Below are positions 31,087 through 39,757 of a stretch of DNA of 44,747 bases, piece by piece. Under the pieces are notes generated by a model. The model saw nothing but the letters and a program-made list of their open reading frames with translations, was not told where the DNA came from and searched no databases. How positions within the stretch are numbered: the stretch's first letter is position 1; each line of letters starts with the position of its first letter. The DNA is from a bacterium (GTDB taxonomy: Bacteria; Patescibacteriota; Minisyncoccia; Phycocordibacterales; GCA-002787175), in NCBI GenBank assembly GCA_030699905.1, contig JAUYKQ010000024.1, forward strand, positions 1 to 44,747, given 5' to 3'. The translations under genes and the position numbers were made by a program.

Positions 31087-31119
31087 CTGAAACATACCCT
31101 GTCAGAACACATTTTAATA

Positions 31120-31128
31120 TGTTATAAT
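31120..31128 (+). promoter_or_regulatory. Extended -10 promoter of the 31135 operon (leaderless GTG)
   Basis: TG-T-TATAAT (31120-31128) ends six bases before the GTG at 31135. No good -35 box is seen, as is common for extended -10 promoters. Confidence 0.65.
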
Positions 31129-31134
31129 AAAAAA

Positions 31135-32178
31135 GTGTTCGTCCCTATAATTTGCAAAGACGAAGAGAGTTATAGAAAACTGAAAGTTGAAAATCCCGGA
31201 CTGCGGAATTTGGATGTTTTTGAATTGCAACTGAAAGAGCTCTTCAATATCAGAAATCCCAACGTGGCTAACAAAATCAGGTTTCCTGATGGGGAAAGCA
31301 AATTTTTAAAATCTCCGCCGGTAGAGTCCGTTTGGATTTATTTTCCATGGAAAGAGCTGATTGTGAAGATGGTGAGCAGTGATGCATATTTTGAACTGCG
31401 GACGGCAAGGAACAAGAACATAATAAGCAAAGAGGAGCAACAATCATACAGAAATCTCCGCATCGGCATAGCGGGACTTTCGGTCGGCTCGGCTATATTG
31501 GAAAACCTAAACATAAGTGGCGGTCCTCAAAGTGTTAAAATTGCCGACTTTGACCGATTGGAAACAACTAATCTAAATCGTATAAGAGGCACTTTGCTTG
31601 ACATTGGGCAATTAAAAACGGAAGTGGCGGCTTGGCGCGCCTATGAACTTGACCCGTTTTTGCATTTAGAAACTTATGACAGTGGCTTGGACGAGAAAAA
31701 CATTGAGAAATTTATGATGGAGCCGAAACTTGACGCGTTTATTGACGAGATGGATTCCCTTGAGATGAAGTACCGGGCAAGGGAAATTTGCAAGAAAAAC
31801 GGAATCCCTGTTTTAATGGCCACAGAAGTGGGGGACAAAGCCGTTTTGGACGTGGAACGGTATGACTTAGAGCCGGAGACAGAGCCGTTCCTCGGTGCCT
31901 TAGACGGATGGGATTTTGAGTCCTTAAAAAAAGTTGACAGAGAGAAATGGTTTGAACTGACATCAAAAATAATAGACCGGAGGCATCTTTCAGAGAGAAT
32001 GACACAGTCGGTTGGTGAAATAGGTCGAACGCTCGCGGGAGTTCCACAGCTCGGGACTGCCGCTTCGGTTGCCGGCGCGTCAATATCTCTGGCTTTGCGC
32101 AAAATAAGCAGCGGGAAAAAACTGCCATCAGGAAAATACGTTACGGATTTAGAGCGTGCTCTTGAAAATAGAGTATAA
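31135..32178 (+). CDS. ThiF/E1-like adenylyltransferase (resembles the N-terminal half of Rv1355c-type proteins)
   Basis: ThiF/E1 enzymes adenylate a carboxyl group. About 90 N-terminal residues (with ESVWIYFPWKELIVKMVSSD) precede the Rossmann core: IGIAGLSVGSAILENL for the nucleotide loop and ADFDRLETTNLNRIRGTLLD for the acidic/Arg pocket, then DAFIDEMDSLEMKYRAREIC. No CxxC zinc knots or obvious catalytic cysteine are visible. From memory, Rv1355c/MoeY-type proteins join a similar module to a nitroreductase domain; here the nitroreductase is a separate gene at 35206. The 347-residue protein starts at GTG. It is the first gene of a six-gene operon; the next starts 4 bp after it. Confidence 0.75.
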   Translation: MFVPIICKDEESYRKLKVENPGLRNLDVFELQLKELFNIRNPNVANKIRFPDGESKFLKSPPVESVWIYFPWKELIVKMVSSDAYFELRTARNKNIISKEEQQSYRNLRIGIAGLSVGSAILENLNISGGPQSVKIADFDRLETTNLNRIRGTLLDIGQLKTEVAAWRAYELDPFLHLETYDSGLDEKNIEKFMMEPKLDAFIDEMDSLEMKYRAREICKKNGIPVLMATEVGDKAVLDVERYDLEPETEPFLGALDGWDFESLKKVDREKWFELTSKIIDRRHLSERMTQSVGEIGRTLAGVPQLGTAASVAGASISLALRKISSGKKLPSGKYVTDLERALENRV

Positions 32179-32182
32179 TTTT

Positions 32183-33616
32183 ATGCTTCTTCCCTTAAAG
32201 AATCTGGATTTTTTAGCATTGGCGCGTCAAACAGCCAAAAACGTCCCGGCATACCGCGAGTTTTTAAAGCTAAAAGGAGCTAAAGTGCCGAATTTCGACA
32301 AAGATTTTCTTGCTTTGCCTGAAACCGATAAAAACAGTTATTTCCGAGCTTTTCAATTGAAGAAACTTTTTCCCAAAGAAGTTTTGCCTCCTTTTGCATA
32401 CGCCAGTTCAGGGTCTTCTGGAAAGCCGACCTTTTGGTTTAGGGGAAGTGAGCAGGAAAGAATCGGAGTGGAAAGCCACGAAGTTATCTTTCGGGACATC
32501 TGGAATATAGGCAAGAGTGACGAAACACTGGTAATAATCTGTTTTTCTATGGGGCTGTGGGTGGCAGGCAGTTATACTCTGGCCTCTTGTCGTGGCCTTT
32601 CCCAAAAGGGATACAAAATCACGGCTGTCACTCCAAGCATTGACAAAGCAGATACAGTGTACGTTTTCAAAAAGCTATGTCCTCAATTTAAAAACGTTGT
32701 AATTGCGGGTTACCCCCCTTTTGTAGCCGATGTTTTACTGGAAGTAAAAAAGCGCAAAATTGATATTCCGAAAAACCTCTACATACTAACGGCCGGCGAC
32801 TCTTTCACTGAAAAGTGGCGAGACGATATAGGGGCGCTTGCCAATATTAAAAAACCGCATCATATCGTAAGCGTTTATGGTTCTGCTGATACCGGCATCT
32901 TGGCATTCGAAACGCCGTTAACCATAGCCCTACGCCGAAAAGCACAGAAAGATCGGGCTTTGGCCTGTTCATTGTTTGGCGAAGTGAAAGAAATACCTCC
33001 CATACTGCAGTATGACCCGCGAATGCTTTTCATTGAGGAATCAAAAGGGGGAGAGCTCCTCATAACAGCGCCTACCGCGTCGCCTCTTATACGGTACAAT
33101 ATTCACGACAGGGGAAAAATCATTGACTTGAACAAACTGCAAGAGAAGTGGAAACTGCCGGATGTTGGCCGAAAGTTTAACGGCTGGAATAAAATGCCAG
33201 TCATTTCTACCTTTGGACGCACTGACGTCGCAGTAACGCTCTACGCCCTGAATATTTATCCTGAACATATAATCTCCTGTATTAAAAGGGCTCCATTCAA
33301 AAACCTTTTGTCGGGAAGTTTTTTGGTTTATAATAAAACAACACACGGAAGCAAAAGACAAACTTTACACATACGCCTTGAAATGTTGCCGAGGGCCGAA
33401 AAGCAGGCGGCCAGGTTTGGAAATGCTTCAGATGTTTTTGCCGAATATCTGTCACAAGTAAACATTGAATACAAGAAGCTGAAATCAGCCATAGGGAGAA
33501 AGGCCTTGCCGAAAATTCACTTCATGCAAAACGGCGACTCGCTACTTTGGAAAAACAAGGGGCCGGGACTTGTTTTCACTAAGGGCAAAAAGTCTAGAAT
33601 TACAAACAATGATTGA
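32183..33616 (+). CDS. PaaK-like adenylate-forming enzyme
   Basis: The likely reaction is ATP-dependent activation of a carboxylic acid, perhaps an aryl acid or amino acid made by the neighbouring lyase. The phosphate-binding loop YASSGSSGKPTFWFR (near residue 75), the A5-like YGSADTGI and the A7-like PLIRYNIHDRGKI support the ANL/PaaK fold. The length is 477 residues. CoA-ligase, ligase or transferase activity cannot be told apart by eye. The start at 32183 follows TATAAT (32174-32179) by only three bases; the ORF also has an upstream in-frame start at 32156 inside the previous gene. It overlaps the next gene by 8 bp. Confidence 0.75.
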   Translation: MLLPLKNLDFLALARQTAKNVPAYREFLKLKGAKVPNFDKDFLALPETDKNSYFRAFQLKKLFPKEVLPPFAYASSGSSGKPTFWFRGSEQERIGVESHEVIFRDIWNIGKSDETLVIICFSMGLWVAGSYTLASCRGLSQKGYKITAVTPSIDKADTVYVFKKLCPQFKNVVIAGYPPFVADVLLEVKKRKIDIPKNLYILTAGDSFTEKWRDDIGALANIKKPHHIVSVYGSADTGILAFETPLTIALRRKAQKDRALACSLFGEVKEIPPILQYDPRMLFIEESKGGELLITAPTASPLIRYNIHDRGKIIDLNKLQEKWKLPDVGRKFNGWNKMPVISTFGRTDVAVTLYALNIYPEHIISCIKRAPFKNLLSGSFLVYNKTTHGSKRQTLHIRLEMLPRAEKQAARFGNASDVFAEYLSQVNIEYKKLKSAIGRKALPKIHFMQNGDSLLWKNKGPGLVFTKGKKSRITNND

Positions 33617-35201
33617 ACAAATTAAGAAAGCGGTTGAAATAGGGAAAGGGAAGACCCTTAAAATTGAGGATTGCAAAGCCGTGGCGCGGGAGGGCACGCA
33701 GGTAAAGATAAGTTCGCAGGGGAAGAAAGCGCTAAATGAATCAAACGACTTCCTTCAGCAACTGCATGAAAAGCGGCTTTTAATCTACGGAATAAATACT
33801 CAATTTGGAGGCCAAGTTAACTATATTGAACCAGCGCTTACCGCCAGTCAAAAGGACTACGACTCCTCGGTAAGACAAAGGCAAATTAACCTTATACGTT
33901 CGCACAATTGCGGCATCGGCCCGGAAGTGTCAGAAGATATCGTAAGGGCCGCCATGTTATTGCGAGCACATTGCCTTTCTCTCGGATTTTCAGGAGTGAG
34001 AGTCGAAGTCGTTGAGAAGCTACTTGCGCTTCTTGAAAATTCCATTCACCCGGTTGTAAAGCGGTACGGTTCTATTGGCGCAAGTGGCGACCTTGTGCCC
34101 TTATCTGCAATCGCTTGCGCCATTGTCGGTGAAAATACGCCGGTAAATTTGAGGGATGGAAAGTTGCCCGCCAGCGAGGCGTTGGACAAGTTTAAAATAA
34201 TTCCTCTGCGCCCCGAGCTTCGCGAGGGACTTGCGCTTATAAACGGCACCTCCTTTATGACAGCCGCCGCATCTTTGGCATTTTACGATTTGGAAAGGCT
34301 GTTTGGACAGATGCTTAAGGCAGTGGCTTTGTCGTTAGAAGGCCTTTTAGTCATTGATAGCGGATATGATGCGCTGATTCACAAAGTTAAACTGCACACG
34401 GGGTCACAAGAAGTCAACGCCATCATGAACGACTTTTGGAGAGGGAGTTCGCTTGTGCGAAAATTGGACCAATTGAGAAAAGACAAAGGCGCGCAAAAAA
34501 GAAACGCTTCGGACCCACAGGAGATTTTCTTACAGGATTGCTATTCGGTACGCTCAATACCGCAAGGATTCGGTACCTTCAAGGAAAATATGGGACGTGT
34601 CAGGCAGTGGATTGAATCGGAAATGAATTCCGTAAATGACAACCCCGTTGTTGACACCAAAAGCAAGAGAGCTCTGCAGGGATCGAATTTCATGGGTTAT
34701 TATATAAGTCAAGGCTCCGATATCTTGAAAATGGAGATAGCCCAGGCATCAGCATGGCTTCACGCAATTCTCGCCAATATGGTAAACGAGCGCAGAAGCA
34801 GAGGATTACCCGCAAATCTCGTAAGGGAACCGGGGCTCTATAGCGGTTTTAGACCTATCCAAATTGCCGCCGCCTCATTGGTTGTGCAAAACAGAAAGCT
34901 CGCCGTGGCTCATCAGAATTTTATGATCCCAACCGAGGGGGATAATCAAGATGTAAACAGTTTGGGCACGCACGCGGCTCTCGATCTTGGAGACGCTGTT
35001 TCAAATCTGCGGTATCTAACGGCTATTCTTTTGCTTGCCGGCGCGCAAGCGGTTGAGCTTCGCGGTTTAGACAAAGCCGGAAAGGAAGCGAGATCATTGG
35101 TGAAAAAGATCCGCCAGCGGGCAGCAGTCATTGATAAAGACGAAAATCCCGCTTCTTCAGTTGACGCGGTGGTACAACTACTAAAGAACGAAGAAGTGTA
35201 G
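33609..35201 (+). CDS. Aromatic amino-acid ammonia-lyase or aminomutase (MIO family)
   Basis: MIO enzymes (HAL, PAL, TAL and the aminomutases) remove or shift the alpha-amino group of His, Phe or Tyr. The Ala-Ser-Gly triad that forms the MIO cofactor is intact at residues 158-160 (YGSIGASGDLVPLSA). The catalytic tyrosine is Y60 in LIYGINTQFGG. FKENMGRVRQWIESEMNSVN and ENPASSVDAVV further identify the fold. The selectivity loop reads RSHNCGIGP, with the Ser-His pair typical of HAL and some bacterial aminomutases, while IPTEGDNQDVNSLG differs from classic HutH. Substrate and lyase/mutase choice are therefore open. No other histidine-degradation gene is nearby. The length is 530 residues. Confidence 0.9.
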   Translation: MIEQIKKAVEIGKGKTLKIEDCKAVAREGTQVKISSQGKKALNESNDFLQQLHEKRLLIYGINTQFGGQVNYIEPALTASQKDYDSSVRQRQINLIRSHNCGIGPEVSEDIVRAAMLLRAHCLSLGFSGVRVEVVEKLLALLENSIHPVVKRYGSIGASGDLVPLSAIACAIVGENTPVNLRDGKLPASEALDKFKIIPLRPELREGLALINGTSFMTAAASLAFYDLERLFGQMLKAVALSLEGLLVIDSGYDALIHKVKLHTGSQEVNAIMNDFWRGSSLVRKLDQLRKDKGAQKRNASDPQEIFLQDCYSVRSIPQGFGTFKENMGRVRQWIESEMNSVNDNPVVDTKSKRALQGSNFMGYYISQGSDILKMEIAQASAWLHAILANMVNERRSRGLPANLVREPGLYSGFRPIQIAAASLVVQNRKLAVAHQNFMIPTEGDNQDVNSLGTHAALDLGDAVSNLRYLTAILLLAGAQAVELRGLDKAGKEARSLVKKIRQRAAVIDKDENPASSVDAVVQLLKNEEV

Positions 35202-35205
35202 AACT

Positions 35206-36279
35206 ATGACACAGGAAACTCTAAAAGTCATTTTAAGCGAAGCAGTTTACGCGCCGTCCGGCGACAATTTGCAACCGTGGCATTTTGAATTTAGTAGACA
35301 GTCAGGAGTCCTCAAAGTTTTTGCTGACTTGAAAAAAGACAACTTTGTTCTGAATTTCCGCTGGAGAGGAACTTACATAGCCGTTGGCGCACTGTTGGAA
35401 AATATATCAATCACTTCAAAAAAAAATGGTTTTACAGCGAGAATCAAACTGTTTCCTGACGGCCAAAGCCAACCCAACTTTATTGCTGAAATTCTGTTTG
35501 AGAAAAATGATCCTGACGAGGACGAGCTTTATGAATTCATCAGATCCAGCCGAACTAACCGCAGGCCTTATGAGAAAGATCCGATATCGGAGGAAAAAAA
35601 GGCAGCATTGCTAAGCGGTGCGAGAAATCAGTTCTGCAGATTAATTCTTTTAAGTGGCAGGCGAGAGATTTCCGGTCTGGCACCGGCCTTTAGTGTCATG
35701 GAAAGAGTGGCTCTTGAAAACGAAACCCTGCACAGGTTGTTTTTTAAAGATATTGTCTGGAGTGAAACTGAAGAGAAAGAAAAAAAAAGCGGACTTTACT
35801 TAAAAACTCTTGAACTGCCTTCGCCGGCAGGCATGGTCTTTCGTCTTATTAAATATTGGCCTATAATGAAAGTGTTTAACGCTTTGGGATTTTCAAGATT
35901 TGCGGCATTTGGAAATGCTTCCGTTTACAGCTCGTCAGGCGCGCTGGGAGCGATTATTATGAGCGAAACGACTGCAAAGGCCTTTGTAGAAGCGGGGCGT
36001 ATGCTTCAGAGAACTTGGCTTTTGTGCACAAAACTTGGACTAAGCTTTCAAATTGTAACCGGTATTGTATTTTTGGCTGAAAAGTTTACTTCCGGAGAGC
36101 GAAAGGGGTTTACGGGGAAGCATATCGCATTGGTTGAAAACTCCAACCAGACAATTAGAAAACACTTTGACGCGAGAGGAGAGGAGGTTATCGGACTAAC
36201 TTTTCGCATCGGCGTCGCCAAACCGCCCTCAGCCACTTCTTCACGAAAGGAGCCAGTTATAAAAATAGTACAAAAATGA
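35206..36279 (+). CDS. Nitroreductase-family FMN protein
   Basis: The N-terminal EAVYAPSGDNLQPWHFEF matches the flavin-binding start of nitroreductases, followed by RWRGTYIAVGALLENISITS and SRTNRRPYEKDPIS. The C-terminal half has SSSGALGAIIMSETTAKAFV and EVIGLTFRIGVAKPPSATSS. At 357 residues it is longer than simple nitroreductases and closer to the Acg-like or Rv1355c C-terminal type (family memory, not checked). It could oxidise or reduce a pathway intermediate. It starts 4 bp after the MIO gene and overlaps the methyltransferase by 4 bp (ATGA). Confidence 0.75.
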   Translation: MTQETLKVILSEAVYAPSGDNLQPWHFEFSRQSGVLKVFADLKKDNFVLNFRWRGTYIAVGALLENISITSKKNGFTARIKLFPDGQSQPNFIAEILFEKNDPDEDELYEFIRSSRTNRRPYEKDPISEEKKAALLSGARNQFCRLILLSGRREISGLAPAFSVMERVALENETLHRLFFKDIVWSETEEKEKKSGLYLKTLELPSPAGMVFRLIKYWPIMKVFNALGFSRFAAFGNASVYSSSGALGAIIMSETTAKAFVEAGRMLQRTWLLCTKLGLSFQIVTGIVFLAEKFTSGERKGFTGKHIALVENSNQTIRKHFDARGEEVIGLTFRIGVAKPPSATSSRKEPVIKIVQK

Positions 36280-37211
36280 ATCGCACCACTTCTAACAAAA
36301 GGCAAGAAGAAATAGAAGAAATAATCGGCAACCTTAAAGAACTGAAGCGAGACGAGGATAAAAATAAAGAATACGCTATTGACGCGAATATCGCTTTTTT
36401 TACAGCGCTACTTTCTTACCGTTCGTTCTTGAGATGGTTTATTTTTCACTGTTCACAAGTTGATGGAGTAAAACTTCTGGAGCTGACGGACTTCAATAAT
36501 GCAAGCTGGAAAGCGGAATTCTATAAACAGATGATACTTTTTGAAAAGGACAGATTTCCCTATTTTATTCGACCATTGGTCAATCGACTTGTCCAGTTTA
36601 TCAAAAGCCAAAGTAGAGACGTTGTTGTGGCCAGTTTTGGATGTGGTCCAATGGAGATAGAAAGGCAAGTACTGAAAAGGTTAGAGAGCGATAAATTTCC
36701 CCACAGCGTTACTTTTGTGGGGTTTGATACGGAGCGTGTGGCTATTGATTTTGCAAAACGAAACTTAAGTAGCTTGGAAACACTGCATATAAATGTTGAC
36801 GAATTCGTTGGGGCAAATAATCTTAAAGGTAAAATTCAGGGACAAAAAAAAGCGAAATACTCTGTACTTCTGACCTCTGTTGATGTATTTGACTTACCGG
36901 TACTCTTGGGGGACTATAAATTTGACATACTTTTTCACTCTCTTTTTCGCCATCATGTAAAGCATTTATCACATAATTTGGAAAACCTGACTCGCCGCAT
37001 CAGTCAATCATCCATTGAATATGATGGGTACAGAAGTTTTTGGAGAATACTACCGCCTTCTATAGAGTTTTGGAACTCTCCGGTTTTTTTGAACTCTGCG
37101 GTATTTTCCAACTTGCGATACGACCAAAAGAGCGAAGTAATGTTAAGAAAGAGGGAGGGTTTTAAACTTTCCTTCTTTCCACAAGGGACTTATCTGTTAG
37201 AATATAGCTAA
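36276..37211 (+). CDS. Putative class I SAM-dependent methyltransferase
   Basis: The central segment VVVASFGCGPMEIERQVLKR is a SAM-binding motif I, followed by HSVTFVGFDTERVAIDFAKR as the acidic post-I strand. A later DILFHSLFRHHVKHL fits the motif IV/active-site region. The first 110 residues are helical and not recognised. The length of 311 residues is compatible with a small-molecule methyltransferase. It overlaps the nitroreductase gene by 4 bp and ends 1 bp before the kinase gene, so it is clearly part of the operon. Confidence 0.6.
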   Translation: MNRTTSNKRQEEIEEIIGNLKELKRDEDKNKEYAIDANIAFFTALLSYRSFLRWFIFHCSQVDGVKLLELTDFNNASWKAEFYKQMILFEKDRFPYFIRPLVNRLVQFIKSQSRDVVVASFGCGPMEIERQVLKRLESDKFPHSVTFVGFDTERVAIDFAKRNLSSLETLHINVDEFVGANNLKGKIQGQKKAKYSVLLTSVDVFDLPVLLGDYKFDILFHSLFRHHVKHLSHNLENLTRRISQSSIEYDGYRSFWRILPPSIEFWNSPVFLNSAVFSNLRYDQKSEVMLRKREGFKLSFFPQGTYLLEYS

Positions 37212-37212
37212 C

Positions 37213-38811
37213 ATGAAAATACTGGAAACCCTGTTACCAAACACAGATCTCTTATTACTCGGAGTGACCGTGGCCGCAATAGGCATACTTGGTTTTGTTG
37301 TGTACATCAACAATCCCCACAGTATAACCCACCAGTCCTTTCTGCCACTTTCAATTTTCGCTGTCTTGTGGGGAATTTTTAATTATTTAACTTATCAATT
37401 TGACAAACCAGAGGTGGTTATATGGGTTCTACGAATATCAGTTTTCTTTGCTGTTTGGTACGCTCTTGCTTTGTTTAACATGCTTTATGTTGTTCCAAAA
37501 GAAAAAGTTAAGTTTCCGAAAATATATTGGGTTGTGTTCCTGCCGATAGTTGTCCTGACATCATTTTTTACTTTGACACCGCTTGTCTTTAAGGAAGTAA
37601 CTGGGTTTGTTGACGGACGCGTGACCAGCGTTCAAAACGCACCTGGTGTTATCGCATTTGCAATAATTTCAATTAGTTTAGTGATTGGGGGTATGTATGT
37701 TTTATTTAGTCGTATAATTAGTTCAAAATCAACCGAAAGAACCAAATTAGTATACGTTCTTATTGGAGTTATCATAACTTATTCGCTTATAATAGTATTT
37801 AATCTGATACTTCCCGCTTTTTTTGACAATACTTACTTTATTCCCTTTGCCGCTTTATTCACTTTGCCATTTATAGCGTTAACAGCTTATGCCGTGATTA
37901 AGCACCGCCTGTTTGATTTGAAGGTGGTTGCGGTTTCAATACTGACCTTTGTGTTGGCCGTGGTAACTTTGATTGAAGTCATTTTTGCTGACTCTTGGGA
38001 AGCAATCTCCTTCCAATTAAGCGTCTTTATTTTGGTGCTCCTTTTTGGTTTTTTGTTGATAAGGAACGTGTTAAGAGAAGTCCGGCAACGGGAGAGGATA
38101 GAACGACTTGCTAAGGACCTGGAAGAGGCGAACGAACAGCAAACAACCCTTATTCACTTCATCACCCACCAAATTAAGGGATTCTTTACAAAGTCAAGGA
38201 ATATTTTCGCCACTTTGCTTGAGGGCGATCTGGGAAAAATACCTACGGAAGCCAAACCTTATCTGGAAGAGGGATTTCGTTCCGACACAAAAGCCGTTAA
38301 CATCGTTCAGGATATATTGAAAGCGGCAAATATTCGCAAGGGGACTCTGCAATATGAAAAGAAGGACTTTGACTTGCGACCCATATTTGAAGATGTCGTC
38401 CAAAAGGGCAGAGCGGAGGCGGAAGATAAAAACCTGACCATTAAAACGAAAGTTGAAGACGGCGACTTTGTTATAAATGGCGATAAATCCCAAATTGAAC
38501 ACGCGATGAGAAATTTGTTAGACAATGCCATAAAGTATACGCCCGCGGGTGAAATCACTTTGTCTCTTTTCAAAAAGGCAGGAAAAACCGTATTTTCGGT
38601 CTCTGACATGGGTATTGGAATAGACAAAGACGAACTGCCTCTTTTATTTAGAGAGGGTGGACGAGGCAAGGACGCTTTAAAGACGAACACCGAAAGCAGT
38701 GGCTACGGACTCTATATTGTGAAAAGTATTGTTGAGGCGCACGGAGGACGCGTCTGGGCCGAATCAAAAGGTAAAAATCAAGGTTCTGTCTTTTCTTTTG
38801 AACTGCCTTAA
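37213..38811 (+). CDS. Sensor histidine kinase with multi-pass membrane N-terminus
   Basis: About seven hydrophobic segments cover residues 10-290 (for example LGVTVAAIGILGFVVYI and SVFILVLLFGFLLI), like HisKA_7TM-type sensors. A coiled coil leads to the phosphoacceptor region LIHFITHQIKGFF with H319. The ATPase domain has the N box NLLDNAIKYTPAG, G1 DMGIGIDKDELPLLF and G2 SSGYGLYIVKSIV. It has no receiver domain, and no response-regulator gene lies in the window. Only 1 bp separates it from the methyltransferase, and an extended -10 (TGTTAGAAT, 37195-37203) lies just upstream of the ATG. It may sense a product or substrate of the operon. Confidence 0.92.
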   Translation: MKILETLLPNTDLLLLGVTVAAIGILGFVVYINNPHSITHQSFLPLSIFAVLWGIFNYLTYQFDKPEVVIWVLRISVFFAVWYALALFNMLYVVPKEKVKFPKIYWVVFLPIVVLTSFFTLTPLVFKEVTGFVDGRVTSVQNAPGVIAFAIISISLVIGGMYVLFSRIISSKSTERTKLVYVLIGVIITYSLIIVFNLILPAFFDNTYFIPFAALFTLPFIALTAYAVIKHRLFDLKVVAVSILTFVLAVVTLIEVIFADSWEAISFQLSVFILVLLFGFLLIRNVLREVRQRERIERLAKDLEEANEQQTTLIHFITHQIKGFFTKSRNIFATLLEGDLGKIPTEAKPYLEEGFRSDTKAVNIVQDILKAANIRKGTLQYEKKDFDLRPIFEDVVQKGRAEAEDKNLTIKTKVEDGDFVINGDKSQIEHAMRNLLDNAIKYTPAGEITLSLFKKAGKTVFSVSDMGIGIDKDELPLLFREGGRGKDALKTNTESSGYGLYIVKSIVEAHGGRVWAESKGKNQGSVFSFELP

Positions 38812-38860: not shown

Positions 38861-39757
38861 TTAAAAAGAAGCTAAGATGTATTTCGGTTTCTCTTTCTCG
38901 TAAAGAGCTTTTGCTTGTGAACTGCTCAAAGCATCGGCGTAAACACGAACATTGTCCATCATTCCCTCAAAGTTAGCGTAGGACTCCGTAAGTTTATATC
39001 CCAGTCGGGAAGGGCCTCCGTAATCAATTATCACTACTTGAGGAACCGATTCGGCGCGGTCTAATTTGCCGTCAATATAAAAACGCCAGCCAACTCCGGG
39101 CTCAAGCACGAAAATAACATGGGTCCATTTGTCTCTCGGTATCACGGCGTAAGAACGGGGCCAGTGGTTTCCTCCGGAATGACAAGGAGGATTTGCGGGG
39201 TTGCACCGAACCATAATCTGCAGACGCCTATCCACATCGCTCGAATATTCCAGATAATGAAGGCCTCCTATCCTGCGGAGAATCGTCTCGCCGTCAACTC
39301 CGACTTCGCGCGTCGGGTATATCCACAGCGAAATGCTGGATTTACCATTAAATGTGCCGCCAAAAGTGTTAGGGTCCCTCAAGGACTGATTAAGCTCCAC
39401 GTAGTCGTCAACGCCATCAAAGCGCAAACAGCTACCGCTTAAAAGTCCGCATTGACTTTCAGTTTGCTAAATCGCGCCTACTATTGTCCCTCCGTTATTG
39501 CCCGCGTTATCTGCTACAGAGGAACCGGAGCCCTCGTCAAAAGCCAAGCTCATCACCGTTTCGTATCCTAAGGCATGGTCTGCCTGAGCCATAAGCGATT
39601 TGCCTCCGGCCATGCGCGCCTTCTCGCGACCATCGCTTAAGCTTGCAAAAACGACCCCTGACAAAAGCGAGATTATTGACATAACGACCAGAAGTTCAAC
39701 AAGAGTGAACCCGCGTCTCCCGCTTGAAAGATAAAATTTTTTATGGCGACAAGTCAT
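38861..39757 (-). pseudogene. Prepilin / LamG-domain fusion interrupted by an in-frame amber codon
   Basis: The N-terminal part (39757-39470) has a classic prepilin start, GRRGFTLVELLVVMSIISLL, with Glu5 after the cleavage site. It then enters the beginning of a concanavalin/LamG domain (MSLAFDEGSGSSVADNAGNN). A TAG at 39467-39469 stops it. The same frame continues without shift into SCLRFDGVDDYVELN and a full LamG-type domain (SISLWIYPT, GWRFYIDGKLDRAE, FEGMMDNVRVYADALS) to 38861. Joined, it is about 298 residues with one stop, possibly a former TGG or another single-base change. It could be a recent pseudogene, a strain polymorphism, a sequencing error, or readthrough. It overlaps the upstream membrane gene by 17 bp. 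Confidence 0.8.

Follow-up and report, generated by a model that had tools for sequence, protein, structure and literature searches.

A six-gene operon (P0001 to P0006) of a CPR bacterium, located in a 44,747-nucleotide stretch of contig JAUYKQ010000024.1 (referred to as the window, meaning the whole stretch of DNA that was analysed), was found to belong to a cassette that recurs across CPR genomes and almost certainly acts as a functional unit. Around a PaaK-family ligase, this cassette assembles a ThiF/E1-like enzyme, a flavin oxidase, one of several exchangeable deaminases and a 7TM histidine kinase. We propose that the operon couples a small-molecule synthase to its receptor and that the product is an oxazolone-type compound built from amino acids, a scheme to which we give, as a whole, about even chances. 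The genomes of CPR bacteria are reduced, most of these organisms are uncultured, and they are believed to live on other cells; to our knowledge, their ways of coordinating with kin or hosts are largely unknown. In the literature searched, we came across no account of a CPR cassette that combines ThiF, PaaK-like and kinase genes.

Layout and genomic setting of the operon

Recomputing the open reading frames of the window returned the same six co-directional plus-strand genes, with junctions of +4, –8, +4, –4 and +1 bp, that an earlier sequence-only reading of this DNA had listed (Table 1). The key motifs likewise lay where that reading had placed them, namely ASG at 158–160 of P0003, SSGSSGKP at 75 of P0002, GLSVG at 114 of P0001 and His319 in P0006. 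Pfam gathering scores were exceeded for ThiF (PF00899), Lyase_aromatic (PF00221), Nitroreductase (PF00881), and HATPase_c together with HisKA_7TM. Of the leaderless extended –10 promoter proposed in the same reading, the TG and TATAAT box is indeed present and its end at 31128 lies 6 bp upstream of the GTG start of P0001, so that a transcript starting from it would be nearly leaderless. Of the promoter-like matches in the region, this box scores best (10/12), but with 13 found against 12.2 expected, their number is at chance level.

Table 1. Features of the operon and their positions in the window.
Feature	Position	Strand	Evidence
Candidate promoter	31099..31128	+	CTGTCA, 18 nt, TG + TATAAT; consensus match only
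P0001, ThiF/E1-like cyclase, 347 aa, GTG start	31135..32178	+	PF00899 4.5e-21; NF005901 293 bits
P0002, PaaK-family acyl-adenylating ligase, 477 aa	32183..33616	+	TIGR02155 1.8e-8 (weak), AlphaFold/Foldseek
P0003, MIO aromatic amino acid ammonia-lyase or aminomutase, 530 aa	33609..35201	+	PF00221 2.1e-135
P0004, nitroreductase-fold flavin oxidase, FDO-A/Acg type	35206..36279	+	PF00881 4.1e-10; NF005901 167 bits
P0005, putative SAM-dependent methyltransferase, unnamed family (MTx)	36276..37211	+	sub-threshold Pfam methyltransferase matches only
P0006, 7TM sensor histidine kinase, proposed receptor	37213..38811	+	HisKA_7TM 4.8e-9, HATPase_c 9.4e-25

The source genome measures 816 kb and is nearly complete (98.9%, with 0.06% contamination). 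It contains one MIO enzyme and eight response-regulator matches, none of the latter adjacent to the operon, and neither a ketoacyl synthase nor a urocanase was found in it. The operon is flanked by dnaK-dnaJ on one side and by a tyrosyl/tryptophanyl-tRNA synthetase gene on the other. These flanks, together with a G+C content of 43% in the operon versus 45% in the rest of the window, give no sign of a contaminant contig. Directly downstream, on the minus strand (38861–39757), a Laminin-G/ConA-like domain protein and a type IV pilin-like N-methylation protein are encoded.

Protein families of the five enzymes

The first and fourth genes had been taken by the sequence-only reading for a split version of the Rv1355c fusion, and the family model NF005901 (Rv1355c family) bears this out: its N-terminal half matches P0001 and its C-terminal half (positions 373–713) matches P0004, each half scoring below the full-length cut-off of 476, while in CPR locus L067 the ThiF and oxidase halves are fused into a protein of 738 aa. 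Both proteins can also be aligned over their lengths with a family member from Rhodococcus. In P0001, R92, N148 and R149 are invariant among 42 relatives. D207, in the DxxD motif FIDEMDS, is conserved in at least 90% of these relatives and aligns with EECDS of the Rhodococcus protein; judged by this motif, it would be the counterpart of D217, the adenylation-motif Asp of TrzS from M. smegmatis. The APSGDNxQPW motif at position 16 of P0004 is invariant or near-invariant among 23 relatives, over which R177, a candidate counterpart of R540, the flavin-oxidase Arg of TrzS, in a numbering that has no anchor, is not conserved. A PDB sequence search with P0004 gave no match.

Rv1355c is TrzS, for which ATP-dependent cyclisation and O2-dependent desaturation of N-acyl-Trp to an oxazolone have been demonstrated (PMC12856293), and the tyz pathway divides the two steps between a ThiF protein (TyzB) and a flavin oxidase (TyzC) (PMC10404671). 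Since the chemistry of TrzS is known, the matches of P0001 and P0004 to the two halves of Rv1355c not only uphold the idea of a split fusion but also attach a chemistry to it. By this homology, P0001 and P0004 probably act on N-acyl amino acids. ThiF-family enzymes classically adenylate the C termini of proteins or peptides, and the E1-like enzyme could accordingly have a peptide or a carrier protein as its substrate, in RiPP-like or ubiquitin-like chemistry, and yield a modified peptide signal. We hold this to be very improbable, because the junctions of +4 to –8 bp leave no small carrier or precursor gene among the operon genes, the nearest characterised family acts on N-acyl amino acids (PMC12856293), and the class II loci described below have FeeM partners.

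Action on N-acyl amino acids would place the operon beside the TrzAS, TyzACB and OxzAB systems of Mycobacterium, Rhodococcus and Pseudoalteromonas, which contain a homologous ThiF cyclase and flavin oxidase, the CPR pair being split in the manner of TyzB and TyzC (PMC12856293, PMC10404671). The CPR operon differs from them in having a PaaK-like ligase and a deaminase in place of the acyl-CoA N-acyltransferase, no gene of the TrzA/OxzA/TyzA type being found here or in any of the ligase loci, and in including a 7TM kinase. This replacement of the acyltransferase, the co-encoded proposed receptor and the wide CPR distribution are what is new relative to the three known systems.

Searches of Pfam and of PDB sequences with the ligase P0002 gave no match. 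Its AlphaFold model (pLDDT 87.7), however, was closest to PaaK1 and PaaK2 in Foldseek (best match PaaK2, 2y4o, E 5e-19), with AjiA1, NatL2 and ClxA also among the best matches, and both the PaaK-type fold and the adenylation motifs are present. P0002 thus shares its fold, adenylation loop and C-terminal lysine (K470, invariant in 48 relatives) with these aryl-adenylating enzymes, some of which belong to natural-product pathways; it differs from them in its identity of only 15–19% and in its tight linkage to a ThiF gene and a kinase gene.

The MIO enzyme P0003 displays Y60, S97-H98, the ASG triad and NQDV at 446. Its HutH score is 364 bits against an NCBIfam cut-off of 539, NQDV replaces the Glu of the ED-VSM motif, and the genome lacks a detectable urocanase; the possibility of a plain histidine ammonia-lyase with hut genes elsewhere, which the sequence-only reading had named as fatal to its proposal, was rejected on these grounds. 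The MIO enzymes in or beside ligase operons carry an NQD(V/I) motif, and the operon enzymes are not histidine ammonia-lyases. P0003 is too divergent for its substrate to be named beyond a likely class, the aromatic amino acids. Three free-standing MIO proteins of other CPR genomes (L016, L018 and L019), which are not accompanied by the cassette, carry ED(H/L)VSM instead. The two of them that were tested, L018 and L019, reach HutH scores of 618 and 640 bits and so rate as genuine histidine ammonia-lyases, an unexpected finding for reduced genomes.

Among solved structures, P0003 matches the tyrosine aminomutase SgTAM and AdmH best, a result that would suit a 2,3-aminomutase giving rise to a beta-amino-acid compound, for instance a six-membered cyclic one, rather than a five-membered oxazolone. 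This reading seems rather improbable to us: the other operon MIO enzyme tested scored highest with FlxA, a tyrosine ammonia-lyase (610 bits, cut-off 700), and the enzymes that replace the MIO protein in sister loci make deaminated acids and are not expected to make beta-amino acids. P0003 shares with both FlxA and SgTAM the MIO fold, the motifs and the Gln that stands for the Glu of histidine ammonia-lyase, but it is divergent from them and falls below every NCBIfam equivalog cut-off.

The fifth gene, P0005, exceeded the threshold of no family in Pfam or NCBIfam. Its low-confidence model (pLDDT 67) is Rossmann-like and comes nearest to SAM methyltransferases, with CmoA-type enzymes as best PDB matches (E about 1e-3), but points to no particular substrate.

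Recurrence of the cassette in CPR genomes

In a sample of 287 genomes of the same phylum, strong relatives of P0001 (at least 118 bits) occur in 35 and relatives of P0002 (E ≤0.001) in 43. Scanning contigs with an alignment of a closer subset of the ligases yielded 341 relatives. The 80 that were listed come almost entirely from CPR bacteria or unnamed bacterial MAGs and span many candidate groups, a bias which, with a query built from CPR proteins, is no proof of absence elsewhere; one of the 80 is labelled Pseudomonadota and may be misbinned. Among plasmid-collection records, isolated ligase relatives without the cassette were seen in Nonomuraea and Gemmatirosa.

After removal of duplicates, at least 120 ligase loci were available, 82 of which were complete in the sense of having at least 3 kb of sequence upstream and at least 5 kb downstream. 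Counting as partners those genes that lie on the same strand within 6 kb of the ligase, ThiF was present in 77 of the complete loci, the 7TM kinase in 70 and a flavin oxidase (of two sub-types) in 64, leaving 18 without a recognised oxidase. Ligase, ThiF and kinase occurred together in 68 of the 82. The enzymes therefore co-occur in many CPR genomes, and what the sequence-only reading had regarded as a surprising pathway for a reduced CPR genome turns out to be no isolated oddity but a widespread cassette, patchy even within a genus. Recurrence of the same families together in distant CPR genomes also speaks against a chance gene cluster or an artefact.

The deaminase position proved variable. 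A recognised deaminase is present in 45 complete loci, comprising an ELFV dehydrogenase in 28, an aminotransferase in 12 and an MIO enzyme in 6 (one locus has two), and is missing from about half. The ELFV enzyme has as its best named relative the tryptophan dehydrogenase ScyB (295 bits, below cut-off), and the aminotransferase is HisC-like. The MIO lyase, the tryptophan-dehydrogenase-like enzyme and the aminotransferase are thus interchangeable in the cassette; common to all three is that they remove an amino group and leave a carboxylic acid, the kind of compound that PaaK-family ligases activate. The MTx protein was present in 7 and an alpha/beta hydrolase in 4 of the complete loci. Three loci (L144, L150 and L151) consist of only a PaaK-like ligase and a 7TM kinase, without ThiF, and in L150 a 356-aa protein without a Pfam match lies between the two.

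P0001 is absent from two genomes of the same genus. In one of these (G358, locus L258), dnaJ is directly followed by gltX, without any cassette. In the other (G417, locus L257, 1445–5412), the genes downstream of dnaJ encode a PF01553 acyltransferase, an uncharacterised protein of 550 aa and a 7TM kinase other than that of the operon. The site behind dnaJ thus differs among close relatives in the enzyme–kinase cassette that it holds.

The kinase and a proposed oxazolone pathway

After ThiF, the kinase is the most persistent partner of the ligase. Outside the scored intervals, 252 kb of sequence contained two kinase fragments, corresponding to approximately 0.05 per interval, so that about 4 of the 82 complete loci would be expected to contain one by chance, compared to the 70 observed. 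P0006 contains H319, an N box at 434, and G1 and G2 boxes at 465 and 497, and none of the 29 operon kinases aligned has lost the phosphoacceptor His. When its sensor domain (residues 1–305) was compared with the 287 genomes, the 14 best non-self matches (204–265 bits) were all operon kinases, and the next match, at 125 bits, also adjoins a ligase. Distances between ligases, ThiF proteins and sensor domains correlate (r 0.44–0.53, above all 1000 permutations), but a common history of the species produces a correlation of that sign as well, which makes this evidence weak. The linkage fits a cognate receptor, and although adjacency is no proof of ligand binding, we think it likely that the kinase senses the product of the cassette.

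Alternatively, the product might be a secondary metabolite serving as pigment, as antioxidant or in host manipulation, with a kinase that responds to another cue and serves only to regulate the operon. For the oxazolones of mycobacteria no signalling role is known (PMC12856293), and the nearest relative of the dehydrogenase variant, ScyB, belongs to the biosynthesis of the pigment scytonemin. Against this stand the linkage of the kinase to the ligase across lineages, its retention where ThiF, oxidase or deaminase is missing (L144, L150 and L151), and a sensor domain that forms a group tied to the operon. Regulatory genes moreover usually turn over faster, in our judgement, than this kinase does, and we consider the alternative unlikely, if still the most serious of those discussed here.

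Taking the kinase as receptor, the following route can be drawn. The MIO enzyme would strip ammonia from an aromatic amino acid to give an aryl-acrylate, while in sister loci the tryptophan-dehydrogenase-like enzyme or the aminotransferase would give an alpha-keto acid. The PaaK-family ligase would then adenylate the acid at the expense of ATP and join it to a second amino acid at the amino group, this direct amide formation yielding an N-acyl amino acid and substituting for the acyl-CoA dependent acyltransferase of the known oxazolone pathways. Because the source genome has no detectable ketosynthase, it is plausible that a deaminated amino acid takes the place of a fatty acyl-CoA. By homology with TrzS, the ThiF enzyme would adenylate the carboxylate and close the oxazolone ring, and the flavin oxidase would desaturate the alpha-beta bond; in some lineages the methyltransferase might tailor the product. 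Once exported, the product would be sensed by the co-encoded 7TM kinase, which would pass the signal to a response regulator encoded away from the operon. Two points sit uneasily with this route, in that the alpha-keto acid expected from ELFV and aminotransferase loci means that one product may not fit all loci, and that an O2-dependent desaturation is awkward for an anaerobic CPR bacterium.

The oxazolone model predicts that a non-orthologous enzyme can take over the acylation step while cyclase and kinase stay, a pattern seen in a second group of loci. Many weaker kinase matches adjoin a second, shorter ThiF family of about 270 aa. The 15 loci examined (referred to as class II) were chosen for nearby weak ThiF and kinase matches; without that choice, the figure is 16 of 25 weak ThiF matches. 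Six of the loci (L154, L155, L158, L165, L167 and L170) encode a protein that passes the Pfam gathering score for FeeM, an N-acyl amino acid synthase of LuxI fold, which in L167 is fused to ThiF and in L170 occurs without ThiF; weak FeeM matches were seen in L159, L164 and L168. A search of the ligase loci turned up no FeeM-like gene. In some class II loci, the 7TM kinase is followed by a single-domain response regulator.

Small-molecule synthases adjoining a sensor kinase have likewise been predicted by homology in CPR genomes for CqsA-, LuxI- and PpyS-like enzymes (PMC7567580). In that survey, which covered 26 signal types already known, ThiF is not mentioned in the text, and the signals discussed do not include oxazolone-type synthases. 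It includes 18 LuxI–kinase pairs, read as acyl-homoserine lactone systems (PMC7567580), among which some class II loci may be found.

Tentatively, and with somewhat less confidence than in the scheme itself, the cassette might represent a new and widespread class of CPR communication, in which oxazolone-type autoinducers are made from two amino acids, interchangeable deaminases supply acyl precursors that differ between lineages, each autoinducer is read by a co-encoded 7TM kinase of its own, and the modular cassette is exchanged between genomes. A biosynthetic operon kept with its own receptor in a genome without a detectable ketosynthase would point to a communication trait that repays its cost to the genome, and would offer a role for oxazolone chemistry, whose physiological purpose in mycobacteria stays open. 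With about six genes, the cassette is open to study in E. coli, for which the organism need not be cultured. Other CPR 7TM kinases adjoin unrelated genes, encoding a UbiA prenyltransferase and a protein without a Pfam match (L171, 6440–7294; L173, 6706–7329), and these neighbours hint at further enzyme–kinase pairs in CPR bacteria.
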